64,000 nt of DNA from Halomonas elongata DSM 2581. GTDB lineage: Bacteria > Pseudomonadota > Gammaproteobacteria > Pseudomonadales > Halomonadaceae. Shown piece by piece: positions 5,154 to 25,058 of this stretch. A model generated the notes under the pieces. The model ran no database searches and had not been told where the DNA came from. It saw only the letters and a program-made list of their open reading frames with translations. The translations under genes were made by a program, and so were the position numbers. Positions within the stretch are counted from its first letter, which is position 1; the number at the start of each line of letters is the position of its first letter. The stretch lies in the NCBI RefSeq assembly GCF_000196875.2, contig NC_014532.2:3472001-3536000 (forward strand), read 5' to 3'.

Positions 5154-5971
5154 CAGGCATTACCCCCTGCGTTCATGACGTTGTCTTCGATCCACTGGGT
5201 GAAGGTATCGCGGTCGCGCGCGATGGCGTCCCACTCCTTGTAGAAGTGGTTGTCGCGCGGGTAGTAGCCATGCGCGTAGGACGGCAACGAGCCCTTCTCG
5301 GCGACGCTGATGGCATCGATCGCCCAGCCCGGAATCACGCAGGCATTGGGGTGCGCCTCGAGGTCGTCGACGATCTCCTCGACGGTGACGATGCTGTGCC
5401 TGGCGGCCAGCACGGCCTCCTTCTGCACGCCGACAATGCCCTCGACCAGCACGTTGCCGGCCCGATCGGCTTTCTGGGCGTGCACGATGGAAACGTCCGG
5501 CCGTACCGAAGGCACGGCGGCCAGACGTTCGCCGGTGAAGGGGCATTCGATGAACTTGATCTGGTCGTTGACGCGGGGCAGCTCGCTGCCCACGTAGCCG
5601 CGCAGCACGGCCAGCGGCAGCCCGGCGGCACCGGCCTCGAAGGCGCACGCCATGGCGGCGTGGCTGTGTTCGAGGATCTCGATCTTGTGCGGCCAGCCCT
5701 TTTCGACGGCGTCACGCAGGCGATGCAACGACCCGACGCCCGGGTTGCCACCCCAGGAGAAGATCACCTTCCTGGCGCAACCGGCACCGATCAGCTGGTC
5801 ATAGACCAGGTCCGGCGTCATGCGGATCAACGTCAGATCGCGCTTGCCCTGGCGAATAATCTCGTGTCCGGCAGCGAAGGGAATCAGATGGGTGAAGCCT
5901 TCCATGGCCACGGTGGCGCCGTCTTCGACGTAGCGTGCCACCGCATCATGCAGGCTGAGGATCTCGGCCAT
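5153..5971 (-). CDS. pcaI: 3-oxoadipate CoA-transferase, alpha subunit
   Basis: A 272-residue CoA-transferase alpha subunit. The N-terminal GATVAMEGFTHLIPFAAGHE stretch and the IFSWGGNPGVGSLHRLRD glycine-rich loop are typical of the family. It is the first gene of the leftward operon pcaI-pcaJ-pcaF-transporter-pcaDC-pcaQ and pairs with pcaJ to activate 3-oxoadipate. Upstream, at 6051-6084, are two adjacent sites matching the PcaR recognition pattern, so the operon is probably controlled by the IclR protein at 7695-8474. A CoA-transferase for another 3-oxoacid cannot be excluded by sequence alone, but the neighbours argue for 3-oxoadipate. Confidence 0.9.
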   Translation of the reverse strand: MAEILSLHDAVARYVEDGATVAMEGFTHLIPFAAGHEIIRQGKRDLTLIRMTPDLVYDQLIGAGCARKVIFSWGGNPGVGSLHRLRDAVEKGWPHKIEILEHSHAAMACAFEAGAAGLPLAVLRGYVGSELPRVNDQIKFIECPFTGERLAAVPSVRPDVSIVHAQKADRAGNVLVEGIVGVQKEAVLAARHSIVTVEEIVDDLEAHPNACVIPGWAIDAISVAEKGSLPSYAHGYYPRDNHFYKEWDAIARDRDTFTQWIEDNVMNAGGNA

Positions 5972-6050
5972 GATGGTTTGCCTCTGGTTGAATCGCGCAC
6001 CGGCGCTTGTCGCAACGCCTCATGGGCACCGAGACTCGTCACTCGGCAAG

Positions 6051-6084
6051 GTGCGCTGTACGAACATAGGTTTGTTATACGAAC
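6051..6084 (-). promoter_or_regulatory. Tandem candidate PcaR boxes upstream of pcaI
   Basis: Two 15-bp sites lie 4 bp apart, 80-113 bases before the pcaI start. Site 6051-6065 reads GTGCG-N5-CGAAC, and site 6070-6084 reads GTTTG-N5-CGAAC. The published PcaR box of Pseudomonas putida is GTTCG-N5-CGCAC, whose reverse complement has the GTGCG-N5-CGAAC form of the first site. In P. putida PcaR binds near the promoter and activates pcaIJ with beta-ketoadipate as inducer. Binding here is inferred. Confidence 0.65.
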
Positions 6085-6121
6085 AAAATAATCCGCCAGC
6101 CCCGGCCCGTCAAACGCGCAC

Positions 6122-6154
6122 GAAAAACGGGGGCAGGTGTTCCCTGCCCCCGTT
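6122..6154 (-). terminator. Rho-independent terminator of pcaB
   Basis: A perfect 12-bp stem (6126-6137 with 6143-6154) has a 5-base loop. Read on the minus strand it is followed by a run of T (6122-6127). It lies 33 bases beyond the pcaB stop, separating pcaB transcripts from the pcaI operon, which therefore needs its own promoter. Confidence 0.9.
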
Positions 6155-6186
6155 CAGGACGCTCATTTCACTTGAGTTTCAGTATA

Positions 6187-7539
6187 TTAGCGATCTTCCA
6201 ACCAAGCCCGAGCGCGATCCACCTGTGCCTGGCTGCTACCAAGGTATAACGCCGGATCCGTGGCCGCCTCGAGATCCGCCCGTCCGATTTCGCCCGACAG
6301 CTCACCATGACGCGACGCCATCAACGCCTCGAGCGCATCGGCGTACGGGATCCGCTGCTGTCGTGCCTGCTCCGCCGCCTCCGCGGCCAGGGCCTTGGCC
6401 TGTTCCGTCCCCAGGTGAGGCGTCAGCAACCTGGTGACCGGCTCGGCCATGATCGCGCCGCCGGTCACCGTGAGATTGCGTTGCATGGCCTCGCCATGCA
6501 CCTCCAGCCCCTCCAGCAGCACGGCAGCCTGTTCGAGGGCGCCCTCCAGCAATAGCGCACTGTCGAGCAGTGGTGCCCATTCGGCATGCCACTCGCCCAA
6601 TCCGCGCTCCAGTGGCTGGGCCGTGGCATTGAGTATGACCGTGGTGTGACCATGGATCTGACGACAGGCGCCCCGGATCATCGCGCAACGCACCGGGTTG
6701 CGCTTATGGGGCATGGACGACGACTCGCCCATGCCTTCCCCGGCGGGCTCGGCCACCTCGCCGAGTTCGGTCTGGGTCATCAGCGACACGTCCAGCGCCA
6801 GCTTCTCGGCGGCCCCGGCCGCGCCATCGAAGGCCGTCGACAGAGCATGGATCGGCTGACGGTCGGTATGCCATGGCAGCACCGGTGCCGAGAGGCCCAG
6901 ACGCTCGGCGAGGCCGTCCATGACGGTGAGCCCCAGAGTCTCCCAGCCGGAATGCACCCCCACGGCCCCACCGAACTGTACGGGCAACCCCGGTTCGGCC
7001 AGGGTGGCGAGACGTCGGCGCGCCTGCTCCAGCCCCAACGCCCAATGGGCCACTTTGACGCCGAAAGTGATCGGCAACGCCTGCTGCATCAGGGTACGCC
7101 CGACCATGGGCGTCCGGGCATGGGCCTCCATCAATGGCAGCGCTGCCCGACGACAACGCGCCAGCAAGGCATCCAGACGTTCCAGGCGTGGCATCAGCAG
7201 GATCATCAACGCCGAATCGACCACATCCTGACTGGTGGCACCGAGGTGCCAGTACGGCTTGAGGTCATCGGGGAGCGCTGCTCGTCCGGCCTTGACGAAA
7301 GGAATGGCGGCGTTGCCACCGCTGGCCACACCCTCGGCTATTGCACTCGGGTCGAAATCGTGGCTCTCGAGGCAGGCCCGCATGCGGCGGCTGACATCGG
7401 CGGGAATGGCACCCTCGGCCTCCTGGGTCTCGGCCAGGGCCAGTTCGAAGGCCAGCATGGCCCGGACGAAGTCCTCGTCGCGGGAAGCGGCCAGACCGCT
7501 CTGGCTCATGAAGGGATGCTGAATCAAAGCGTCGGGCAT
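6187..7539 (-). CDS. pcaB: 3-carboxy-cis,cis-muconate cycloisomerase
   Basis: A 450-residue member of the fumarase/aspartase superfamily. The signature loop GESSSMPHKRNP lies around residue 270, preceded by LGATSQDVVDSALM near residue 100. The enzyme cyclises 3-carboxy-cis,cis-muconate to 4-carboxymuconolactone, the step between protocatechuate 3,4-dioxygenase and PcaC. The gene is monocistronic here: it has a terminator after it and a regulated intergenic region shared with the divergent pcaR. A GGAG stands about 9 bases before the ATG. The dioxygenase genes pcaHG are not within the window. Confidence 0.93.
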   Translation of the reverse strand: MPDALIQHPFMSQSGLAASRDEDFVRAMLAFELALAETQEAEGAIPADVSRRMRACLESHDFDPSAIAEGVASGGNAAIPFVKAGRAALPDDLKPYWHLGATSQDVVDSALMILLMPRLERLDALLARCRRAALPLMEAHARTPMVGRTLMQQALPITFGVKVAHWALGLEQARRRLATLAEPGLPVQFGGAVGVHSGWETLGLTVMDGLAERLGLSAPVLPWHTDRQPIHALSTAFDGAAGAAEKLALDVSLMTQTELGEVAEPAGEGMGESSSMPHKRNPVRCAMIRGACRQIHGHTTVILNATAQPLERGLGEWHAEWAPLLDSALLLEGALEQAAVLLEGLEVHGEAMQRNLTVTGGAIMAEPVTRLLTPHLGTEQAKALAAEAAEQARQQRIPYADALEALMASRHGELSGEIGRADLEAATDPALYLGSSQAQVDRARAWLEDR

Positions 7540-13311: not shown

Positions 13312-14376
13312 TTACGTTGTGACCATGACGCGCTTCTGAAGACGCTGCTGCAATTGATCAATGACGACCGCAATGATAATGACTAGCCCCATGATGACCA
13401 TCTGCCAGAAATCACTGACACCAGACATCACCATGCCGTCGTTGAGAATACTGATGACGCATGCACCAATGACCGAACCAATGACAGAACCACGCCCACC
13501 GGCCAGTGCGGTACCCCCCAGAACCACTGCCGCGATGGCACGCAGCTCGTAGGTATCGCCCGTCATCGGATGCCCCGTCTGCAGCTGAGAGGTGATGACA
13601 AGGCCAACGATAGCGGCACAAAACCCGGAAAAGACGTAGACCCACAGTTTTATCTTGCGAACTCTGAGACCAGAGAATATAGCGGCATTCTCATTACCAC
13701 CTATCGCATAGACATAGCGGCCGAATGGTGTCTTGTAGCTAACAAACCAGGTAACCAGCGTCAGGATCAAAAGCAACCATACCGGGATACCGATACCAAG
13801 TAGACTGCCATTCCCTAAAAAGGAAAATCCCGTGTTACCCAGTTCTTCATGCCCTTGGAGCTGGGAAAAGGTACCTCCATCATTGAACAGCAGAGCCGCA
13901 CCACGCACCACATACAGCATCCCTAGAGTTGCAATGAAGGGGGCCACATTGAGATAGGTAATGAGGGCGCCATTGATATAGCCGATAAAGGCACCGACAA
14001 GACACGTTAACAAGATGACCTCTGGTACGCTCAAAAACAGCGTGTAGTCCCCTAGTGGAATCCCATTCATCAGCAGGAAACCGGAGACCATCCCGCTGAA
14101 CCCCACTGTTGAGCCGACTGAAAGATCGATACCTGCCGTCAGGATAACCAGCGTCATACCAATGGAAAGGATACCGATGACTGTAATATGCTGAGCCATG
14201 ATCAGCATATTGTTCATGGTCAGAAAATTATCCACCGTTAATGAGAAATACAGCAATACTGCAAACAGTGCCACGAAAATCCTGAGCTTCAATATCTGAA
14301 GCAATACCCAGGATGCCTGGAAACTCTTACTATGATGCGAAAGGTCATGCGTAGACAAATCGGTAGCGGTTGTCAT
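13312..14376 (-). CDS. CUT2-type sugar/polyol ABC transporter permease (RbsC family)
   Basis: A 354-residue inner-membrane permease with about ten hydrophobic segments. It carries the CUT2 hallmarks ILTAGIDLSVGSTVGFSGM and AIAAVVLGGTALAGGRGSV. It works as a dimer with the ATPase encoded immediately upstream, with which it overlaps by four bases (ATGA, 14373-14376). Codon use is less GC-rich than in the flanking tal and tkt genes, suggesting acquisition. The substrate is unknown; the family handles ribose, xylose, erythritol and related polyols. Confidence 0.92.
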   Translation of the reverse strand: MTTATDLSTHDLSHHSKSFQASWVLLQILKLRIFVALFAVLLYFSLTVDNFLTMNNMLIMAQHITVIGILSIGMTLVILTAGIDLSVGSTVGFSGMVSGFLLMNGIPLGDYTLFLSVPEVILLTCLVGAFIGYINGALITYLNVAPFIATLGMLYVVRGAALLFNDGGTFSQLQGHEELGNTGFSFLGNGSLLGIGIPVWLLLILTLVTWFVSYKTPFGRYVYAIGGNENAAIFSGLRVRKIKLWVYVFSGFCAAIVGLVITSQLQTGHPMTGDTYELRAIAAVVLGGTALAGGRGSVIGSVIGACVISILNDGMVMSGVSDFWQMVIMGLVIIIAVVIDQLQQRLQKRVMVTT

Positions 14377-15977
14377 GATCGAGCTCCTTGCTGAGCAGCG
14401 GCTGTCTCTCGAGCAGCAGAAGGTGACGCCTTTTGAGTGATGATGTCACGATCCACCTGGTCGCGTGGTAGGTCGGCAGTAATCTGCCCCGACGCCATAA
14501 CCAAGATGCGATCGGAGACCGCCAGAGCCTCATCCAGTTCTGAAGTGGTATAGATAATGGCAACGCCCTGATCGGCGATATTATTCATGGCACGGTAGAT
14601 ATCGGCCTTGGCCCCAACGTCCACCCCACGGGTAGGTTCATCGAATAATAGGACACGCGGTTCGGTAAGCAGCGCTTTCCCGATGATGACCTTTTGCATA
14701 TTGCCACCGCTTAGCGTGGTAATGTAGTCAGTATCATTTGACACCTTGATGCCAAGTGTTGAGACCATGCTCTGACTCTGCTGCTTTTCCACTTTTCCAC
14801 GAATCATGCGAAAGCCTAGAAAACGGGAACAGCAGCGTCCGATACTGGATAGTGTCATATTGTCACGAACCGACATGGGCTGAATCATCCCAGCCGTTTG
14901 TCGATCTTCTGGCACCAGTGCTATACCGGCCTTGATTCGGTTGGCCGGTTTAGCCTTGGCTAACGGTTTTCCATCGAACTCGATGTCGCCCAGCGCGCTC
15001 CGATGCAGGCCAAGCAGAACCTCCATCAGCTCAGTTCTACCAGAACCCATCAAGCCATAAATACCAATGATCTCTCCACGGCCAACACCAAAGTTGACCT
15101 TATCAAGAGCCAAGGTGCCATTGATCCGTTTCAGGCTCAGATCCTTGACCCTCAGTATTGGCTCTCCGATTTGCCGAGGACGGTAGTCGAAAATCTTGTG
15201 TTCGCCTCCCACCATCTGACGAACGATCCAAGAAATGTCAATATTTTCGACAAGATCGACACCGACAATACGACCGTTACGGAGTACCGTGATGTGGTCA
15301 CCAATTCTCATAATCTCTTCCAAACGATGAGAGATGTAGATGACGGCAACCCCTTCCTGACGGAGCGATTCAATAATACCGAACAGGACCTCAACCTCTG
15401 TCAGGCTCAAGGCAGAAGTAGGCTCATCCATGATCAGGACATCAACATCACGGCTCAACATCCTGGCGATCTCGACAAGCTGTTGCTGGCCTACGTAAAG
15501 ATCGCCGATACGTGTAGCAGGGTCGATGTCCAGGCCCACACGTTCGAGCAACTGCTTAGCCTTACGATATTGTGCACGGGTATCTATCGTACCGGCATGG
15601 CGTATCTCATTACCGATGAAAAGATTTTCGGCTATGCTCATATCGGGGAAGAGATTTAGCTCTTGAAAGATAATCCCTATACCGGATTTCTCTGCATCTC
15701 GCACACCATGGAAATAAACCGATTTTCCTTTGACGAGAATCTCACCTTCGGTTGGACGCTCGGCACCGGCTAGCAACTTCATGAGAGTTGATTTACCTGC
15801 ACCGTTTTCTCCGATCAGAACATTTACGCTCCCGGGGTACACTTCATAGTCTACTGAGTCCAGAGCCACGGTCCCGGGATAACGTTTAGTAGCATTCTTT
15901 ACTCGAACCAAAGGTTCTGATGTCGCCCCGATTTTTTGTTCAGCGGTTGATTTATGTTGGTCTTCCACTGTGTTCAT
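14373..15977 (-). CDS. CUT2-type sugar/polyol ABC transporter ATP-binding protein (RbsA family)
   Basis: A 534-residue protein with two fused nucleotide-binding domains. The first has a full Walker A (LIGENGAGKSTLMKLL), a DVDVLIMDEPTSALS Walker B and a degenerate signature. The second has the degenerate P-loop GLMGSGRTELMEV and an intact TLSGGNMQKVIIGKALL signature, the usual RbsA asymmetry. The ATG at 15977 is preferred because GGGAGG stands about 9 bases upstream; an ATG at 16040 would add 21 residues and overlap the DUF2291 gene. Confidence 0.92.
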   Translation of the reverse strand: MNTVEDQHKSTAEQKIGATSEPLVRVKNATKRYPGTVALDSVDYEVYPGSVNVLIGENGAGKSTLMKLLAGAERPTEGEILVKGKSVYFHGVRDAEKSGIGIIFQELNLFPDMSIAENLFIGNEIRHAGTIDTRAQYRKAKQLLERVGLDIDPATRIGDLYVGQQQLVEIARMLSRDVDVLIMDEPTSALSLTEVEVLFGIIESLRQEGVAVIYISHRLEEIMRIGDHITVLRNGRIVGVDLVENIDISWIVRQMVGGEHKIFDYRPRQIGEPILRVKDLSLKRINGTLALDKVNFGVGRGEIIGIYGLMGSGRTELMEVLLGLHRSALGDIEFDGKPLAKAKPANRIKAGIALVPEDRQTAGMIQPMSVRDNMTLSSIGRCCSRFLGFRMIRGKVEKQQSQSMVSTLGIKVSNDTDYITTLSGGNMQKVIIGKALLTEPRVLLFDEPTRGVDVGAKADIYRAMNNIADQGVAIIYTTSELDEALAVSDRILVMASGQITADLPRDQVDRDIITQKASPSAARETAAAQQGARS

Positions 15978-16029
15978 GGCGCTGCCCCTCCCCGAGTCGG
16001 AGTGATATTGTTTCGCCTTCGTTGGCATA

Positions 16030-16680
16030 TCACTCGCCATTGACGCGATTCAGTGCGACCGGGACGATTTGTACCGTATTACCCATACCATCCCAAGTTG
16101 AAAAGGCTCCGATAGCCTCTACTGTATCGCCACTATCAACATTGCCGAAGCTTTCGACGATTGAGATGACTTGGTCGTTAAGCTCATCACCAAAAGTTGC
16201 AAATTGATCTTGATTGGCAAAATCAGCATAACCAAGCTCTGGATACCCATCCCGAACAGAAGATCCAGGAATTACAGGGCCAATCAGCAAGGAAATGCTC
16301 TTATCCCCCACATTCCCCAAGTTGATTTTCCCAACACGTGAGGAGGTATCTACGGACGCCACGGCATCGGAGACATGAACCCAAAAGGTGCAGGGGAATG
16401 CTTGGCTTTGCTGAACGCCATATTGCTCACAAGCCGATTGAAACCCTTCTGAATCAATCGCTGACAACACAACATCCAGAGGAGCCGCTTTAGAAGCTGC
16501 CCATGGAATGATATTGTCTTGCATGACTTCTTCAGCATTGATCGAGATAGCGTCTCCGTCATCGAGAATGGATGCAAGCTCATCATTTGACACCAGCTTG
16601 AAACCACTAAGCGTCGAAAACATCACAATCGCCAATGCTATGAAAAGACATGCCCTCGGCAGATTTATTGACTTATTCAT
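16030..16680 (-). CDS. DUF2291-family periplasmic protein without lipobox cysteine
   Basis: A 216-residue exported protein recognised as DUF2291 (COG5618, predicted periplasmic lipoprotein). Members are often encoded with CUT2 polyol transporters. The order here is binding protein, DUF2291, ATPase, permease. The N-terminus is a hydrophobic signal (about residues 8-26) ending TLSGFKLVSND, where family members typically have a lipobox Gly-Cys. Here a phenylalanine (TTC) replaces the cysteine, so lipidation would be lost and the segment may act as an anchor or be cleaved differently. Its function is unknown; an accessory role in transport is inference. Confidence 0.75.
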   Translation of the reverse strand: MNKSINLPRACLFIALAIVMFSTLSGFKLVSNDELASILDDGDAISINAEEVMQDNIIPWAASKAAPLDVVLSAIDSEGFQSACEQYGVQQSQAFPCTFWVHVSDAVASVDTSSRVGKINLGNVGDKSISLLIGPVIPGSSVRDGYPELGYADFANQDQFATFGDELNDQVISIVESFGNVDSGDTVEAIGAFSTWDGMGNTVQIVPVALNRVNGE

Positions 16681-16713
16681 ATGGCCATCCGGTCGTCACT
16701 AACTCTCTGAACT

Positions 16714-16736
16714 GGAGTGGTGGATCTCACCACTCC
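16714..16736 (-). promoter_or_regulatory. Hairpin after the binding-protein gene
   Basis: GGAGTGGTG and CACCACTCC form a perfect 9-bp stem with a 5-base loop, between the binding-protein stop (16746) and the DUF2291 start (16680). Such hairpins commonly stabilise the binding-protein message relative to the downstream transporter genes. No T-run follows. Confidence 0.55.
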
Positions 16737-16745
16737 ACATGCCAG

Positions 16746-17729
16746 TTACTGGCTTTGGTACTCAAAGTTCTGAACCAGTTCGGCATTGTCTTGAGTGACA
16801 AGGATGCCACGGAACAACTGACGCTCAGGCTTACCGGTGTCGCCGGTCTTGAGATACTGGTCGAGTTGCTTAACCCCCTCACGCGCCAACTCCTGAGCCT
16901 GAAGCATGGAAGTGGCATAGAGATCCCCGGCCATGATCGCGTCACGTTCATCGTTGCTGCCATCGATGCCGACAACGGTGATGTCAGAGTTGCCAGATGC
17001 TCTGATGGATGCAATCGCCCCCAGTGCTACCGGGCCATTCCCAGCAACGACACCATCGATGTCAGAATGCTCCTGGAGGATGGAGTCCATGGCCTGCTTG
17101 GCCTTAAGCAGTTCGCCACCTGCATCCTGACGAGCGACCATCTTCAGGTCGGGGTATTGATCCAGTACACGGTGGAAGGATTTAGAACGAGTGACGCAGT
17201 TATTATCGGCCAAATTACAGGTCAGCTCGACATAAGTGCCCTCTTCCCCAACCTGCTCAATAAATTTCTGTGCCACTTGAGAGGCTGCCTGAACGTTATT
17301 GTGCGACAGTTGTGAGATAGCGATGCCATTTTCAGGAATTTCCCTATTGATGAGCACTACTGGAACATCGCGCTCGGTAGCATAACGTACCGCTGCGACA
17401 CTTGATGACGAGTCGGCATTATCCAGGATGATGCCGTCAACCCCTTGAGCAACGATTGAGCTGATCAGCTCACGCTGGCGATTGACATCCTCATTATGTG
17501 ATAGCACACGGGTGGAGTACCCGAGCTCCTCGGCCTGCTCCTTGGCGGCATTAGCCTCCGCTGTGTAATACGGATTGTCCAGAGAGTTCACGAGAATGGC
17601 AATGTCGCCCTGATCAGACTCATTGTCTTCTTGAGCGATGGCCGACTGCATGCCCATGCTAAAGGCAGAAGTGGTAATGATTAACGAAAAAAGAACACGA
17701 GCGACGGACTTTGGCGATAAATCGATCAT
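16746..17729 (-). CDS. CUT2-type substrate-binding protein (RbsB family)
   Basis: A 327-residue periplasmic sugar-binding protein. A signal peptide (MIDLSPKSVARVLFSLIITT to SAIAQ) is followed by DIAILVNSLDNPYYTAEANA, the usual first strand and ligand loop. Further on are GVDGIILDNADSSS, DVPVVLINREIP and ITVVGIDGSNDERDAIMAGD, typical of ribose-type receptors. The ATG at 17729 has AAGGTG 7 bases upstream; a longer frame to 17810 overlaps the upstream dehydrogenase. Ligand unknown. Confidence 0.93.
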   Translation of the reverse strand: MIDLSPKSVARVLFSLIITTSAFSMGMQSAIAQEDNESDQGDIAILVNSLDNPYYTAEANAAKEQAEELGYSTRVLSHNEDVNRQRELISSIVAQGVDGIILDNADSSSSVAAVRYATERDVPVVLINREIPENGIAISQLSHNNVQAASQVAQKFIEQVGEEGTYVELTCNLADNNCVTRSKSFHRVLDQYPDLKMVARQDAGGELLKAKQAMDSILQEHSDIDGVVAGNGPVALGAIASIRASGNSDITVVGIDGSNDERDAIMAGDLYATSMLQAQELAREGVKQLDQYLKTGDTGKPERQLFRGILVTQDNAELVQNFEYQSQ

Positions 17730-17803
17730 TGTTGTCACCTTTTCTCTAGTGCTGGCTGATACTTGCTTTTTGACTTTTTCTCGAAGCTTATCAATGGCTA
17801 CAT

Positions 17804-18601
17804 TTACCAAATGGTATAGCCGCCATCGACTACTAGGTCCGCACCATTGATCATGTCACTTCCATTCGTGGCAAGAAACAAGATGCTGGCTGCAATCTCG
17901 TCCGTATAAGCAAACCTCCCCGTTGGAATCATCGATTTCATGCGCTCACCTTTCTCGCCAGACCAGGCAGCAGCGCCCATAGGAGTCAGAACAACTGTTG
18001 GTGAAATACTGTTTACCGTAATGCCATGAGGCCCCCACTCTTTTGCCAAGCTCTTCGTCATGCCGATCAGTCCTGCTTTCGCTGAGGTATATGCGCAATG
18101 CTGATCGATGGCGACCGTCGCGGCTTGGGAGGCGATATTGATAATTTTACCGCCATGACCACTCTTCAGAAGATACCGGCCTACAGCTTTTGCGCACAGA
18201 AAGGGAGCGGTAAGGTTGACATCAATCTGGCGCTGCCATTCCGGCAGTGAGACCTCTTCGGCCGGATTTAGGGTGATGGTCCCGGCGGCATTGATTAAGA
18301 TGTGGAGATCACCGAAGTGATCGATTACTTCTTCTACACAGCGCTCGACTTGGTCCTCTTGTGTAACATCGCAGGACCAGGCCCGAACGCGCTCCTCCGG
18401 AAAGTTGACCAATACTTCTTCTACCCGATCAGCCTCAAAGCCCGGATAGAAAATGGCGATGCTTGCCCCTTTATCGAGCATGGCTTCATTGGCCGCCGAG
18501 GCAATTCCTCCCAGACCACCAGTAACCAATATCACTTTACCGCTCAGCGAAAAATTAAAGTCAACACCATGCTTTAACGACATATCATATTCTGTAGCCA
18601 T
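17804..18601 (-). CDS. Short-chain dehydrogenase/reductase (second of two)
   Basis: A 265-residue classical SDR. The cofactor loop reads VTGGLGGIASAA, the NAG motif is INAAGTI, and the catalytic S-Y-K set is in NIASQAATVAIDQHCAYTSAKAG. The C-terminus ends GADLVVDGGYTIW. It probably oxidises a polyol hydroxyl or reduces a ketose with NAD(P). It lies between the other dehydrogenase and the binding protein, all leftward, in the lower-GC part of the island. AAAGGGGCG a few bases before the ATG at 18601 is a reasonable ribosome site. Confidence 0.9.
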   Translation of the reverse strand: MATEYDMSLKHGVDFNFSLSGKVILVTGGLGGIASAANEAMLDKGASIAIFYPGFEADRVEEVLVNFPEERVRAWSCDVTQEDQVERCVEEVIDHFGDLHILINAAGTITLNPAEEVSLPEWQRQIDVNLTAPFLCAKAVGRYLLKSGHGGKIINIASQAATVAIDQHCAYTSAKAGLIGMTKSLAKEWGPHGITVNSISPTVVLTPMGAAAWSGEKGERMKSMIPTGRFAYTDEIAASILFLATNGSDMINGADLVVDGGYTIW

Positions 18602-18647
18602 TTCGCGCCCCTTTATTTTTTATATAAATCTCAGCATTCCCTATCAA

Positions 18648-19445
18648 TCAAGACATTATGAGTCCGCCATCGACATTGATCGCTTGGCCAGTTATATAAC
18701 GAGCATCTTCTGAGGCCAGGAATACCGCCGTACCTGCAATCTCCTCTGGTGATGCCGCACGTTTCATGGGAATACTCTCAACCCATTCACGGATCAACTC
18801 ACCAGGCTGGTAATCTCCCAGGAGTTCGCCCCAGACCTTGTCGTTGTAATCCCACATATCGGTTACTACGATTCCGGGGCAGATCGCATTAACGGTGATA
18901 CCGGAAGTAGCAAACTCACGCGCGAGGCTTTGCGTGATACCTAACACTCCAAATTTGCTCGCGGCATAATGAGGTGTATAGACGAAACCTTGACGCGCCT
19001 GACCTGAAGCCATATTGATCAGCGCCCCTTTGCCGGCCTCGGCCATATATCGGAGGGCTGCTTTGCAGCACAGAAAGACGCCCTTGGTATTAACGTCCAG
19101 CACTTTATCCCAGTCGGATTCAGACAGCTCTTGCAGCCGTGAAATCGTAATGACACCCGCATTCTGGATGGAAACATCAATGTGCCCGAACTTTTTGTTG
19201 ACATCGCCATAAAACTGATCGACCTGCTCACTCTTCGTAACATCGACTTCAGCCGCCATAATGGTGCCAGGCAAGCCTTCCTCTTTTATTCGATTCTCAA
19301 GATCACGAGCGACATCATGGATTTCCCGGCGATTAGATGCCATAGCAACGCTCGCTCCCTCATCGACGAAACGAGTTGCCATAGCAAGACCGATCCCTCT
19401 GTCAGCACCAGCTACAACTACCACCTGATTATCGAAATTTCTCAT
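18648..19445 (-). CDS. Short-chain dehydrogenase/reductase (first of two)
   Basis: A 265-residue classical SDR. Its cofactor motif is GADRGIGLAMATRF (the usual TGxxxGIG threonine is replaced by alanine), with IQNAGVI and the active-site segment NMASGQARQGFVYTPHYAASKFG (S, Y, K present). It ends YITGQAINVDGGLIMS. With its neighbour it supplies two dehydrogenase steps, or two stereospecificities, for the substrate brought in by the ABC transporter. AAGGAAG lies close before the ATG at 19445. Confidence 0.9.
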   Translation of the reverse strand: MRNFDNQVVVVAGADRGIGLAMATRFVDEGASVAMASNRREIHDVARDLENRIKEEGLPGTIMAAEVDVTKSEQVDQFYGDVNKKFGHIDVSIQNAGVITISRLQELSESDWDKVLDVNTKGVFLCCKAALRYMAEAGKGALINMASGQARQGFVYTPHYAASKFGVLGITQSLAREFATSGITVNAICPGIVVTDMWDYNDKVWGELLGDYQPGELIREWVESIPMKRAASPEEIAGTAVFLASEDARYITGQAINVDGGLIMS

Positions 19446-19518: not shown

Positions 19519-20478
19519 TTAACCTTCCGTATCTAACAGCGCTTCGGCAGTAAAGCTGTCAGTAATCAGCACTTGAATCCAGCCACCCAAGGCTGCTGCG
19601 CGGATAGACGGCACTTTCTGCTGGCCGCCAGCCAGGCCCACCACCCTGGGAATACTTTTCAAGCTATCTGGAGAGATCGCCACTACTCTGTCGTTGAGAG
19701 AGTGCGTAACCAAATCGCCGGTGTCATCAAAGAACCTCAAGCAGACATCACCCACAGCCCCCCAACTGGCCAGGTCGGAGAGCTCCTCCTTGGAGAAGGT
19801 ATTTCCACTTCTGGCAAGAAACCTTGATGGCTCGAGCGTTCCAATACCAACTAATGCAATGCTGAGCTCATCAAACAGCGCCATGGTCTCGCGCACATAA
19901 GGCTCTTCACAGATCACCTTTCGCGCCTCGGGGCTGCTGGTGATACCTGCTACGTGCATAAAGCCCGGCCGAGCTCTCAATCGATTGGCCAACTGCAGCG
20001 TCAAGTTCTCGGCAAGATGCTCCGCACGATCGTGCGACATGCCTCCCATCAACTGAACAACACGTTCTGCTTTCAGCGACCCACTCTTGGGAAGGTGCTC
20101 GGAGAGCGCCACAAGGGCTGAGCTCCAGCTTGAAATCCCCACCCGATCGCTCTCGCGCAAGGTGGATTCCAGATATTGTGCCGCCGCCTCGCCAATGCTC
20201 GACAAGATGGCGTTCTCGCTGTTGTCAGGACAGGCAGCTACTACGACTTCGCTGAGCCCGTACTTGGCGCACAATTCCTCTTCAAGTAGGTGATAAGTAC
20301 CTTCGGGCGGTTTGATACTAATGGCGACGATGCCTTCCTTCTGCGCCCGACGCAGCAAGCGTGATACGCCCGCCTGAGACAGGTTTAACCGTGAGGCAAT
20401 ATCAACCTGGCGCATCTGCTCCACCCAGTACAAGTGGGCCACCTTGGTCGCCAAACGCAGTTCGAATTCGGGCTTCAT
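19519..20478 (-). CDS. SorC-family sugar-responsive transcriptional regulator
   Basis: A 319-residue regulator. An N-terminal helix-turn-helix (residues about 20-45, MRQVDIASRLNLSQAGVSRL) is followed by the SorC sugar-phosphate-binding domain (GISSWSSALVALSEHLPKSG, IALVGIGTLEPSRFL, VGLAGGQQK). Proteins of this family, such as EryD of erythritol operons, are usually released from DNA by a phosphorylated sugar. It is encoded between the kinase and dehydrogenases and probably controls the whole island. Candidate operators are the ATATTC repeats at 23791-24057. Confidence 0.9.
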   Translation of the reverse strand: MKPEFELRLATKVAHLYWVEQMRQVDIASRLNLSQAGVSRLLRRAQKEGIVAISIKPPEGTYHLLEEELCAKYGLSEVVVAACPDNSENAILSSIGEAAAQYLESTLRESDRVGISSWSSALVALSEHLPKSGSLKAERVVQLMGGMSHDRAEHLAENLTLQLANRLRARPGFMHVAGITSSPEARKVICEEPYVRETMALFDELSIALVGIGTLEPSRFLARSGNTFSKEELSDLASWGAVGDVCLRFFDDTGDLVTHSLNDRVVAISPDSLKSIPRVVGLAGGQQKVPSIRAAALGGWIQVLITDSFTAEALLDTEG

Positions 20479-20491
20479 CGTCTTCTCCTAC

Positions 20492-21979
20492 CTAGCCTTT
20501 CGATTGAGAGAGGGTGCGTTCCACAGACCTGATCCACGCCTGATGGCGAATATCTTGGTCCACACCGAGCCCTTCGAATGTATCAAAAGTCGACAACACC
20601 CCCTCCAGTGCCTCAAGCGTCGGCCAGACTCCAAGTTCAAGGCCTGCCAGCAATGCCGCCCCGACAGCTGAAAGTTCTGCTTGAGCAGCTCTCTGGACCA
20701 TGATTCCCAAGGTGTCCGCCTGAAGTTGCATCAGCCATCCGTTGGCACTGGCCCCTCCATCAGCCTTGAGCGCCGTAAGTGGCGGCAGCCCATGACGCTG
20801 ACCGGCAGATCGCATGACATCGACGACATCCTTGATCTGGAATACGATCGACTCGAAGGCCGCTCGTGCCACATCGGCAGGTTCGGTATTGAAGGTCAGC
20901 CCATCCAGAAGCCCAGTGATATCACCGACCCAGCGCGGCGCCCCTAACCCCACCATGGCCGGCACTAAGATCGCCTGACCTTCGCCGTCGGCCGACTCTG
21001 CGAGTTCGGCCAGGCGATCGACAGAGCCGCCGAGGCCCAGAAGCTTCGCGGTCCAAGGCAATATCGCCGCGCTCACCGTGATGTTGCCTTCAAGGGCATA
21101 TACCCGCTGCTCCGGCGTTTCCCAAGCCACCGTCGTCGCCAGACCCTCGGCGCGTATCGGCTGGTCCTGGGTCGTGGTCATCACTGAGGATCCGGTTCCG
21201 TACGTCGCCTTGACGATACCGGGACGAAAACCACCCTGGGCGAATAACGCCGCGTGGGAATCACCGATCATGGACATGATCGGAATCCCGGCTTTGAGCG
21301 ACCCGAACTCACGGGTCTTGCCAAACATATGACTCGAAGGACGAATCTCCGGCAGCATCTCGCTATCAATACCGAAGACATCGAGCAACTCTGGCGACCA
21401 CTGGCCACTGGAGATATCACACAGCTGAGTCCGGGACGCGTTAGACGTATCCGTGAGGTGCACTTCCCCACCAGTGAGATTCCACAGCAGCCAGCTGTCG
21501 ATATTGCCCAACCGGACGCGATGCCGGCTGACACTGTGGTCGAAGGAATCAAGTAACCAGCGAAACTTGGAGCCGGAAAATAGCGGGTCGATGGGCAGAC
21601 CGGAGAGCTCATGGACCCTGGCATTGAGGCCGAGGCGCTTGAGCTCCTCGCAGAAGGGCTGACTACGTCGGCACTGCCAACTAACGCAGGGGGCGAGCGG
21701 TAAACCGCTTGCACTATCCCAGGCAATGGCAGATTCCCGCTGAGACGATATGCCTACAGCGGCAACTTCAATATCAGGGCTTACCGAGAGGCAGGCGTCG
21801 ATGGCTTCCTTGACGGTCTGGACGATTCCTTCGCCTGACTGCTCGACCCACCCCGGCTGAGGATACTGGCAGGGAATCCCTACTTGCGCCTTGGCGATGA
21901 TGTTCCCGCCGAAGTCCACTAGTACCGCCTTGGAGTTGGTCGTACCCTGGTCGATAGCGAGAATGGTCGACGTCGTCAT
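20492..21979 (-). CDS. FGGY-family carbohydrate kinase
   Basis: A 495-residue sugar kinase resembling glycerol kinase and other FGGY enzymes. The phosphate loop AIDQGTTNSKAVLVDF is at the N-terminus, GISSQRESAIAWD near residue 75, TYGTGSSVM near the domain junction and KADGGASANGWLMQLQADTLG near the C-terminus. It should phosphorylate the ketose or polyol made by the dehydrogenases. The ATG at 21979 is preferred, with a GGAGAGG ribosome site; the longer frame to 22027 has no support. It is 10 bases from tktC. Erythritol, apulose, xylulose and glycerol kinases are all FGGY, so the substrate cannot be read from sequence. Confidence 0.9.
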   Translation of the reverse strand: MTTSTILAIDQGTTNSKAVLVDFGGNIIAKAQVGIPCQYPQPGWVEQSGEGIVQTVKEAIDACLSVSPDIEVAAVGISSQRESAIAWDSASGLPLAPCVSWQCRRSQPFCEELKRLGLNARVHELSGLPIDPLFSGSKFRWLLDSFDHSVSRHRVRLGNIDSWLLWNLTGGEVHLTDTSNASRTQLCDISSGQWSPELLDVFGIDSEMLPEIRPSSHMFGKTREFGSLKAGIPIMSMIGDSHAALFAQGGFRPGIVKATYGTGSSVMTTTQDQPIRAEGLATTVAWETPEQRVYALEGNITVSAAILPWTAKLLGLGGSVDRLAELAESADGEGQAILVPAMVGLGAPRWVGDITGLLDGLTFNTEPADVARAAFESIVFQIKDVVDVMRSAGQRHGLPPLTALKADGGASANGWLMQLQADTLGIMVQRAAQAELSAVGAALLAGLELGVWPTLEALEGVLSTFDTFEGLGVDQDIRHQAWIRSVERTLSQSKG

Positions 21980-21989
21980 GGCCCTCTCC

Positions 21990-22934
21990 TCACTTGAGCA
22001 GCGCTTTGGCCGAGTCAACGATGCCATTCACCGACATCCCGAAGTGATCAAGTAGCCATTCGGCCGATCCCGTCGGGGCAAACTCGGGGAACCCCAGCAG
22101 TTTCATCTTGCAGGGAGCCTTGCTGACCACGACCTCCGCGATGGCGCTGCCCATTCCACCACGCACGCTATGCTCTTCGATGGTCAGTACATGCCGGGTG
22201 TCGTTGGCGCACTGGACGATAGTCTCTTCATCCAGGGGAGAGATGCTCGGGAAGTTGACCACGCGAGCCTCAATTCCCTCACCGGCTAATCGCTCAGCCG
22301 CTTCCATGGCTCGGCAAACGGTCACACCGCAGCCAATCAAGGTAATGTCCTGGCCTTCGCGCAGGGTTTGGGCCTTACCGGGCTGGAATTCGTAATTCTC
22401 CGGCAACAATCTAGGCACGCCCATGCGACTCAGACGAACGAAGCTCGGACGATCGCTTTGGGCGACATAGCGAATCACGGCGGCCGTTTCCACGTCATCC
22501 ACCGGGACAAAGATGTCGAGCCCTGCCAGCGGCCTGGTCCAGGCCAGGTCCTCGATAGAGTGGTGTGTTGGCCCCAGTTCGCCGTAGGCGACGCCACTAC
22601 TGACGCCACAGAGTTTCACGTTGGCATTCGAGTACGCGATATCCGCCTTGATCTGCTCGAGCGCTCGGCCGGTCAGGAAACAAGAGGCGCCACACACGAA
22701 AGGCACCAGTCCTGCGTTAGCCAAGCCTGCACCAGCGCCGACCAAGGTCTGCTCGGCAATGCCGACATTGATCAGCCGCTCGGGCCACTTGTCGCGGAAT
22801 CCTCCGAGCTTGCTTGATCCGATAGAGTCGTTACAGACGCTGACGATGCGATCATCTGCTTCCGCCAAGGCCTCCAGGGTCTTCGAGAAGGCATTGCGGC
22901 AATCATGCAGTTGGATGGTATCGGGATTCGACAT
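21990..22934 (-). CDS. Split transketolase, C-terminal subunit
   Basis: A 314-residue protein equal to the pyrimidine-binding and C-terminal domains of transketolase. The conserved glutamate lies in NVGIAEQTLVGAGAGLANAG. The glycine-rich IGCGVTVCRAMEAAERL and the RVVNFPSISPLDEETI stretch follow. It starts two bases after the N-terminal subunit ends, so the two halves are translationally linked and should form one heteromeric enzyme. Comparable two-gene transketolases include AptA/AptB, which act on apulose 4-phosphate in D-apiose catabolism; whether this pair does the same is unknown. Confidence 0.9.
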   Translation of the reverse strand: MSNPDTIQLHDCRNAFSKTLEALAEADDRIVSVCNDSIGSSKLGGFRDKWPERLINVGIAEQTLVGAGAGLANAGLVPFVCGASCFLTGRALEQIKADIAYSNANVKLCGVSSGVAYGELGPTHHSIEDLAWTRPLAGLDIFVPVDDVETAAVIRYVAQSDRPSFVRLSRMGVPRLLPENYEFQPGKAQTLREGQDITLIGCGVTVCRAMEAAERLAGEGIEARVVNFPSISPLDEETIVQCANDTRHVLTIEEHSVRGGMGSAIAEVVVSKAPCKMKLLGFPEFAPTGSAEWLLDHFGMSVNGIVDSAKALLK

Positions 22935-22936
22935 GG

Positions 22937-23767
22937 TTATGCGCCTCGCTCCAGCTCGTTCAGGGCTTCTTCAACTTGCTCCGGGGACGGCACCTTGTGG
23001 TGCCATTCGACACGATCCTGAATGAAGGACACGCCCTTGCCCTTGAAAGTGTTAGCCACCAGACAGCGGGGTTTGTCGGCGACGCGAGGAGCCGTCAGCG
23101 CTTCGATCAACGCCGCGTAGTCGTGTCCGTCTACCTCCAGGGCATCCCACCCAAAAGCACTAAAACGTTCAGCCAGGGGTTCCAGCGACGTCACGTCATG
23201 AGTGCGATCCCCTTGCTGAAGCCGGTTGCGATCAATAATCAGGGTCAGGTTGTCCAGCTTTTTGTGAGCAGCGGTCATAGCTGCCTCCCAGTTGCTGCCT
23301 TCCTGAATCTCCCCATCACCAACGACGACGAAGACCTCCCAATCCTGCTTCTGAAGCTTGGCACCGATGGCAGCCCCCACCCCGACAGGCAACCCATGTC
23401 CCAGAGGGCCGGTGCTGGTTTCCACACCGGGCAGCTTCTCGTTACAAGGGTGGCCGTTGAGTCGTGACTGGGGCTGCACAAAGGTCGACAGCTCCTCCAC
23501 CGGGAAGTAACCGGCGTGCGCCATGGTCGTATACAGCGCGACCGCACAATGCCCTTTGCTCATGATGAAACGATCACGCTCGGGGGCAGTCGGTTCATCC
23601 GGGTTAACTTTCAGCACGTTGAAGTACAGCGTCCCGAGAATATCGATTACGGATAAGTCACCACCGATATGCCCCATATTGGCATTGCCGATGGTTTTGA
23701 TGATCGTCTTTCTCATCTCACGACATTGCTGCGCCAACTCATCGGGCCCCAATGGTCTGAGTGTCAT
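22937..23767 (-). CDS. Split transketolase, N-terminal subunit
   Basis: A 276-residue protein corresponding to the thiamine-diphosphate pyrophosphate-binding domain. Present are GNANMGHIGGDLSVIDILGT, LPGVETSTGPLGHGLPVGVG and the cofactor motif GDGEIQEGSNWEA with its downstream asparagine. It is the first gene of the leftward island. The ATG at 23767 follows GGAGG with an 8-base spacer; an upstream TTG at 23782 is not supported. Upstream is a long AT-rich regulatory stretch. Confidence 0.9.
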   Translation of the reverse strand: MTLRPLGPDELAQQCREMRKTIIKTIGNANMGHIGGDLSVIDILGTLYFNVLKVNPDEPTAPERDRFIMSKGHCAVALYTTMAHAGYFPVEELSTFVQPQSRLNGHPCNEKLPGVETSTGPLGHGLPVGVGAAIGAKLQKQDWEVFVVVGDGEIQEGSNWEAAMTAAHKKLDNLTLIIDRNRLQQGDRTHDVTSLEPLAERFSAFGWDALEVDGHDYAALIEALTAPRVADKPRCLVANTFKGKGVSFIQDRVEWHHKVPSPEQVEEALNELERGA

Positions 23768-23784
23768 ATCCAATACCTCCAAAT

Positions 23785-24057
23785 GAATAAATATTCACTT
23801 TATGAATATCAATTTATAGGAGAATATTTGTGCATTAACTTCTATCCGTCAAGGACAATTAAAAAGGAGCGACTTATCCATTAGCATAATTATCAAAGCA
23901 AGACAAAAATTGGACGAATTCAAAAATAATTTGAAATAAAAGATTAAAATCAATGACTTACACGGGCAATCTCTTGCGTCGGAAAGCGCCTTGCTATTTA
24001 TTCATTAAAGAATAAATATTCAAAACAAATAATTGAATATATATTCGACAGAATATT
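23785..24057 (-). promoter_or_regulatory. AT-rich upstream region of the sugar island with repeated ATATTC/GAATAT motifs
   Basis: ATATTCA (23791-23797) and TGAATAT (23803-23809) form a perfect 7-bp inverted repeat with a 5-base spacer, 24 bases before the split-transketolase start. GAATATT recurs at 23822-23828. About 200 bases further upstream ATATTCA (24016-24022), TGAATAT (24034-24040), the 12-bp palindrome GAATATATATTC (24035-24046) and GAATATTC (24051-24058) cluster again. Two clusters separated by about 200 bp suggest an operator pair for the SorC regulator. The region is AT-rich, so chance occurrences are possible. Confidence 0.45.
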
Positions 24058-24623
24058 CCCCAAAAAAAGATCAAAACATTAGAAACAAAGCAATCGCTAT
24101 AAGGAAAGCATCGCCCCTTTCTGATTCCTCGTTTCCACGCTTTCTTCTTCTCAATACATGGGAAAAGGGGACTGCCCCTCAGGGGCACGTAGGTCTTCCC
24201 CCTCACCTGACCAGGCAAGTGGGGTTTGCAGGGAAGCGTGAGTGGCTTCCTGATCTGGAGTGGCAGTATGACTGCGCCAGTTTCCCATCTCTCGGGGCAG
24301 AGGGTTTCTATCCTGAGCGGGGCATCGCGTCTGACGGAGGAGATCGGCATCACTCGCGCGTGCTGCCAAAGGGCTTGCCTTATCTGTGCGTAGAGAACCA
24401 GGGACAGGCCAAGGAATGAGCCCGCGAGGAGGTAACCCCTAGACCTGACTTTCTCTACCCCCGGGAGCCCAGTGCAGCTCCGAGCTACGACACGGCTGAG
24501 GATCGTCTGATGTAGTGTTTCGAGACCAGACTGCAGGCGCCCTCGGAGTATGTTTGCAGCTCAGCCGTCCCGTGAGGACTATAAATCTGCGTAAGTCACC
24601 ACTGAGGTGGTCCGGCGTGTCGC
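24058..24623. other. Intergenic stretch without a supported gene
   Basis: Base composition switches from AT-rich to GC-rich near 24110. Short overlapping open frames exist on both strands (for example 24033-24419 plus), but none has a convincing ribosome site or recognised motif. A short inverted repeat ACCAC-TGAG-GTGGT (24598-24611) lies just beyond the aroQ stop and might act as a weak terminator. It may be degraded DNA at the island edge. Confidence 0.4.
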
Positions 24624-25058
24624 TCATCCGGCCGCGATCAATGCCTCCAGGGCGGCATGGTAGCCCTGACTGCCGAGACCGGCGATCACCCCGTCGGCAC
24701 GCAACGAGACATAGGAGTGATGGCGGAAGGCTTCGCGCTTGTGGACGTTGGAAAGGTGTACTTCGATGACACGGCCATCAAAGGCGTTGAGGGCGTCGAG
24801 AATCGCCACCGAGGTATGGGTATAGGCCGCCGGATTGATGATGATCGCGCCGGTGCCATCGAGGCGGGCAGCGTGGATGGCATCGATCAGTTCGCCCTCG
24901 TGGTTGCTCTGCCGGCAGGCGATCTCCCAGCCGGCTTGGGCCGCCCGTTCGCGCAGGGCGTTGTCGATATCCGCCAGGGTCTCGTCGCCATAGATCTCCG
25001 GCTGACGCGTACCCAGCAGGTTGAGGTTGGGGCCATGCAGGACCAGGACCTTGTGCAT
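24624..25058 (-). CDS. aroQ: 3-dehydroquinate dehydratase, type II
   Basis: A complete 144-residue type II dehydroquinase. Its hallmarks are [16 protein letters not shown] with the active-site tyrosine, the [16 protein letters not shown] segment and [18 protein letters not shown]. It converts 3-dehydroquinate to 3-dehydroshikimate in aromatic amino acid synthesis. The protein forms a dodecamer in characterised homologues. It sits 30 bases after glnE and could be co-transcribed with it. Confidence 0.96.

Follow-up and report, generated by a model that had tools for sequence, protein, structure and literature searches.

A conserved 14-bp palindrome ahead of a sugar island in Halomonas elongata, a predicted operator of the island's SorC-family regulator

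Ahead of a ten-gene sugar island of Halomonas elongata DSM 2581 the words ATATTCA and TGAATAT recur in two clusters about 200 bp apart, which raises the question of which protein reads them and what a second cluster at such a distance is for. The region was studied within a window of 64,000 nucleotides (NC_014532.2, positions 3,472,001 to 3,536,000), to whose numbering the coordinates refer unless another locus is named. The initial annotation proposed the SorC-family protein encoded by the island as the binder, and looping between the clusters as the means of repression. Taking all of the comparisons below together, we put at roughly 0.87 the probability that the SorC-family regulator encoded in the island itself uses both clusters as its operators, a prediction made from sequence.

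The island and its regulator

The island opens with the two halves of a split transketolase (N-terminal, 22937–23767; C-terminal, 21990–22934), followed by an FGGY-family kinase (20492–22027), which matches the glycerol-kinase model (4e-135) while staying under its cut-off, and by the SorC-family regulator (19519–20478, 319 aa). Two SDR dehydrogenases, a ribose-type ABC transporter and a DUF2291 protein make up the remainder (13312–19445); all of these genes lie on the minus strand. The most likely start of the first gene is the ATG at 23767–23765, with GGAGG 8 nt upstream of it. An inverted repeat discussed below had been placed 24 bases ahead of the first gene, and this distance is correct for the ATG at 23767, not for the longer TTG-start ORF.

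The regulator possesses a C-terminal phosphosugar-binding domain (PF04198, 2.9e-58). Its nearest NCBIfam model is DeoR (NF053881, 3e-65), with a score of 220.5 bits which misses the equivalog cut-off of 420 bits. It aligns from end to end with the DeoR structure 8r7y (1.1e-42), and its N-terminal helix-turn-helix is DeoR-like, matching the DeoR DNA-binding domain 7bhy (E 0.00069).

The presence of a kinase, a split transketolase and two SDR dehydrogenases suggests that the substrate is a sugar alcohol or a ketose that gets phosphorylated. An apulose-phosphate route may be a candidate pathway for the island; a literature search for apiose/apulose or split-transketolase pathways returned nothing useful among the matches listed. 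In a plasmid island of Rahnella (L073) a gene annotated as fucose isomerase (5491–6909) separates the split transketolase from the kinase, suggesting that an aldose can serve as another starting point of the pathway.

Between 13000 and 24050 the G+C content is approximately 0.48–0.63 per 500 bp, with 0.37 at the promoter, in surroundings of approximately 0.65. Because of this low G+C content, and because a SorC ortholog occurs in eight of 275 family genomes scattered over five genera, the island was probably acquired horizontally.

A 14-bp palindromic unit

The perfect 7-bp inverted repeat claimed by the initial annotation is present as ATATTCACTTTATGAATAT at 23791–23809, which reads directly as ATATTCA-N5-TGAATAT. 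Allowing up to three mismatches it is the single match in the window against 0.37 expected, and at least one match of this loose kind appears in 30 of 100 whole-window shuffles. With up to two mismatches there are seven places genome-wide, the exact form occurring solely in the window, and a whole-genome search for TGAATAT-N15-ATATTCA gave no match. TGAATAT itself has five copies in the window where 2.1 are expected, and 5 of 100 shuffles have five or more; four of the five window copies fall in the proximal and distal clusters. Since these shuffles were built on the mean composition of the window and the promoter stretch is A+T-rich (G+C 0.37), this count taken alone is mildly unusual at most, and conservation is the stronger argument for the motif.

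Comparison of the eight orthologous promoters revealed a palindromic unit of 14 bp, TGAATAWWTATTCA. It replaces the 7-bp repeat as the unit, being in closer agreement with the columns that are invariant and with the spacing of the tandem partners. The repeat at 23791–23809 is made up of two adjoining halves, one from each of two such palindromes. These are O1, the proximal core operator (TGAATAAATATTCA, 23784–23797), which is the exact word, and O2 (TAAATTGATATTCA, 23803–23816, minus strand), a weaker partner with three mismatches at 19 bp from O1. With at most one mismatch the unit is found in the window at O1, at O3 (AGAATAAATATTCA, 24009–24022, one mismatch, 225 bp from O1) and at O4 (TGAATATATATTCG, 24034–24047, one mismatch, 250 bp from O1) and at no other place. 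At two mismatches or fewer the genome of 4,061,825 bases has 12 places, and the window trio is among the best four. A weak distal partner with three mismatches, TGAATAAATAGCAA (23991–24004, minus strand), lies 18 bp from O3. O4 includes GAATATATATTC (24035–24046), the 12-bp palindrome that the initial annotation had listed among the further copies some 200 bp upstream.

Elsewhere in the H. elongata genome the unit recurs with one mismatch at 1727464 (L038, 1501–1514), 80 bp from a further copy that has two mismatches; a solute-binding-protein gene follows after about 600 bp. This place is possibly a second target or a product of chance.

Conservation within the family

The family set of 275 genomes was searched with the SorC protein at E 1e-30. 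Twelve genomes matched, eight of them (H. elongata included) with orthologs of 59–100% identity and four with mere relatives of 27–31%. In all seven of the other ortholog loci a tblastn of the ten island proteins gave the identical gene order. Upstream of these orthologous islands, where the initial annotation had advised looking for the motif, it is kept in eight of eight family promoters. Alignment of the eight promoters shows no change at any of the twelve half-site bases of O1, in contrast to the two bases at its centre and the spacer of five bases, which vary. The proximal partner recurs at 19 bp with two to four mismatches in every promoter (at most three in seven of the eight, four in G124), and all eight have a distal palindrome, mismatched at no more than one position, 170–250 bp upstream of O1.

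Might the repeats simply have arisen by chance in an A+T-rich promoter? The stretch is indeed A+T-rich, and the loose inverted repeat is matched in nearly a third of the window shuffles mentioned above. This explanation has against it the conservation in eight of eight promoters and the rarity of the distal site, which at up to one mismatch appears in 0 to 9 of 2000 shuffles of each 200-bp family promoter stretch, the consensus having been drawn from the same promoters that were then tested; the stretch of H. elongata holds two such sites, and 5 of 2000 shuffles of it hold one. We regard the likelihood of chance as negligible.

The composite TATTCA-N5-TGAATAWWTATTCA at one mismatch or fewer is found in exactly the eight genomes with the ortholog and in none of the 267 without it. 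It is in part because of this co-occurrence that the palindromes are assigned to the SorC protein as its predicted operators. At two mismatches the composite extends to 30 further family genomes, 22 of which share TATTCT...AGAATAAATATTCA. In both loci that were read (L043 and L044, near 1501–1525) this look-alike adjoins an ORF of the nitrite/sulphite-reductase type, and for the one neighbour tested Pfam names nitrite/sulphite reductase. The look-alike probably serves another regulator, and since these 22 genomes have no ortholog the looser match is not specific.

The look-alike does show that other proteins may use similar words, and a conserved block upstream of the promoter (see below) leaves room for another factor acting here too. 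One might suppose on these grounds that the palindromes belong to some regulator other than SorC. Against this, the composite site at one mismatch or fewer is confined to genomes with the ortholog, and the word follows the SorC gene into other classes in which the gene order differs. We therefore consider ownership by another regulator most improbable.

Distant islands and paralogs

Beyond the family the word was present in 15 of 16 distant islands fetched, their SorC proteins being 39–48% identical. This, together with a likeness to the operator of DeoR as given in PMC11229326, is the further ground for the assignment, and the protein at 19519–20478 that had been named as the binder gains strong support in silico from all three lines, namely co-occurrence, distant islands and operator likeness.

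At the level of the order six genomes besides that of H. elongata have a SorC protein at 40–45% identity. Within 1.5 kb either side of the gene in these loci (L031–L036) the site is absent; in the four which were later seen with longer flanks both island genes and the word were found (4/4), G553 and G604 having been seen at 1.5 kb only. A class-level search at E 1e-55 gave one genome of 369, that of H. elongata itself. The plasmid collection had 93 records with a relative, of which 12 were fetched, and 11 of these plasmid islands carry the word at promoters or at the kinase–SorC junction. The one without it is from Streptomyces (L074, SorC 39% identical), with no site at up to two mismatches in 18.9 kb. 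A Bacteroidia contig of 5.7 kb (SorC 48% identical), from which the other island genes are absent, carries a site with one mismatch, 29 bp ahead of the SorC ORF.

A census of pairs was made of 49 sites (at most one mismatch) in 23 island loci and the window. Of these, 27 have a partner with up to four mismatches at a distance of 18 or 19 bp and 22 have none there, and the 38 partner matches at 14–30 bp divide into 27 at 18/19 bp, eight at 25/26 bp and three elsewhere, counts which are not independent since many of the loci are close relatives.

Among SorC paralogs the word is absent from nine loci, which represent six distinct places, since three of the loci overlap others, three of the six places being covered with 1.5-kb flanks only. 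One DeoR-like paralog instead shows TGAAATTTATTTCA (L028, 9030–9043), a related word that differs in its inner bases, in the interval separating its gene from the following one. The recognition helix of the regulators that were read has S-Q in bearers of the motif versus S-R in the paralogs. As the Streptomyces regulator has S-Q, yet no site was found with it, this link is a correlation with an exception and not a test.

The promoter and the proximal pair

A putative sigma-70-type promoter is located on the minus strand at 23823–23852, consisting of TTGACG (23852–23847), a spacer of 18 nt and AATATT (23828–23823). The consensus scan gave this one match against 1.2 on average in shuffles, which is weak alone, and showed no second promoter in 23700–24620; Rfam has no match in 23700–24700. 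A better argument for the promoter than the scan is conservation, TTGAC being invariant in eight of eight aligned promoters at approximately 50 bp upstream of O1; it is probably the -35 element. All eight promoters also have in common an AGAC[C/T]AATG-like block with an invariant YAA, approximately 30 bp upstream of TTGACG (23877–23885 or thereabouts in the window, minus strand), which is possibly the site of another factor.

The location of the proximal pair just downstream of the conserved TTGAC implies repression. O1 and O2 would occupy roughly +1 to +33 of the expected transcript, downstream of the probable promoter and ahead of the start codon. Each operator would consist of the 14-bp palindrome, often with a weaker palindrome 18–19 bp away, and from the tandem palindromes we infer a tetramer (dimer of dimers) resembling those of DeoR and CggR (PMC11229326), with one dimer on each palindrome. 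A regulator bound to O1 and O2 would stand in the way of RNA polymerase. Its release is probably brought about by a phosphorylated sugar, which may be what the FGGY kinase makes, to judge by the habits of the family and the kinase of the island. The distal cluster would then be a second binding place of the same regulator, that is, an auxiliary operator.

The distal cluster

In the eight family promoters the core-to-core distances are 170–250 bp, with two choices each in H. elongata and G124. According to the looping proposal a tetramer, or two tetramers joined, would bridge the clusters and close a loop of approximately 225 bp that strengthens repression. The anatomy fits this part of the initial annotation, in that a distal site at one mismatch or fewer is found at 170–250 bp in eight of eight family promoters, and SorC-family tetramers hold two DNA-binding dimers (PMC11229326). 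As to helical phasing, at 10.3–10.7 bp, with the ambiguous distances free to choose, six lineages gave R 0.78 and a simulated p of 0.13, which is not significant, and the four unambiguous lineages gave p 0.16. Furthermore, each cluster has local partners of its own and could thereby accommodate a tetramer by itself, and a limited literature search yielded no paper linking the SorC family, an operator and DNA looping. We are doubtful of a loop; should the distal cluster act in this way, it would be a mode for which the same search found no matching paper.

The second cluster may instead serve as operator for another promoter, which would be a divergent one whose gene has been lost or else an unrecognised upstream start of the same operon, and to this we would give nearly an even chance. 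The rhizobial islands, L061 and L063 have their two clusters at two divergent promoters, those of the transporter and of the transketolase, so that the existence of a distal cluster does not call for a loop. A phosphoglucose isomerase gene 577 bp upstream in Halomonas sp. A40-4 points away from the operon, and in H. elongata a mechanical ORF on the plus strand (24033–24419) begins inside the distal cluster. A comparison of this ORF with 11 related loci gave nothing convincing, however, the best match (E 0.008) covering 47 residues and lying outside the promoter, and the absence of a second promoter from the scan also speaks against this reading. The upstream gene identified in H. elongata, G063, G124 and G117 runs in the direction of the operon.

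The distal cluster may thus be an ordinary second operator or a remnant of one, with the qualification that its retention in eight of eight islands whose upstream neighbours differ speaks against its being no more than a remnant. The two ideas can be combined by supposing that a SorC tetramer loops the DNA, its dimers seated on proximal and distal palindromes about 200 bp apart, and that the operator of a lost divergent promoter has been reused as an auxiliary one; we think this unlikely.

Comparison with known systems

The 14-bp unit, its tandem partner and the position of the promoter are additions to what was first observed, and they provide a precise candidate operator word which can be used for gel shifts, reporters and regulon searches in Halomonas relatives, rhizobial plasmids and enterobacteria. 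Studies of this SorC subfamily were absent among the matches listed in a literature search, and among those listed for the TGAATA word with SorC nothing related was seen, judged by title.

The closest counterpart is DeoR of Bacillus subtilis, which by sequence is of one subfamily with the window protein (8r7y, 1.1e-42), although the latter falls below the DeoR equivalog cut-off. According to PMC11229326, the operator that DeoR binds at the dra-nupC-pdp operon is 39 bp long and lies at -60 to -21, upstream of the transcription start; it contains TGAACAAAATTTCA and, at a distance of 22 bp, TTTACATATGTTCA. O1 (TGAATAAATATTCA) and the DeoR word TGAACAAAATTTCA have a common 14-bp frame, TGAA-N6-TTCA, and in both systems a weaker second site follows in tandem, here beside 27 of the 49 sites. 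The inner bases of the DeoR word are different, with three mismatches to the word here, and the DeoR operator lies upstream of the start whereas O1 and O2 are expected downstream of it. CggR, which controls the gapA operon of B. subtilis, is described in the same paper as a tetramer bound to two tandem palindromes at +32 to +77, downstream of the transcription start and in this respect resembling the proximal pair; its word is unrelated (GGGAC...GTCC type) and its DNA-binding domain of another class. The tandem spacing is 18–19 bp here versus 20–22 bp in CggR and DeoR. Klebsiella SorC (2w48, 1.6e-40) and LsrR (4go1, 6.7e-26) are of a common family with the regulator by sequence.

Both DeoR and CggR sit as tetramers with two DNA-binding dimers each on tandem operators, and in DeoR residues R34 and R39 contact bases (PMC11229326). 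By count along the alignment with DeoR these correspond to Q35 and R40 of the window regulator. A second DeoR-like word, whose putative regulators have Q at the position of DeoR R34, would be useful in working out the DNA code of this family.
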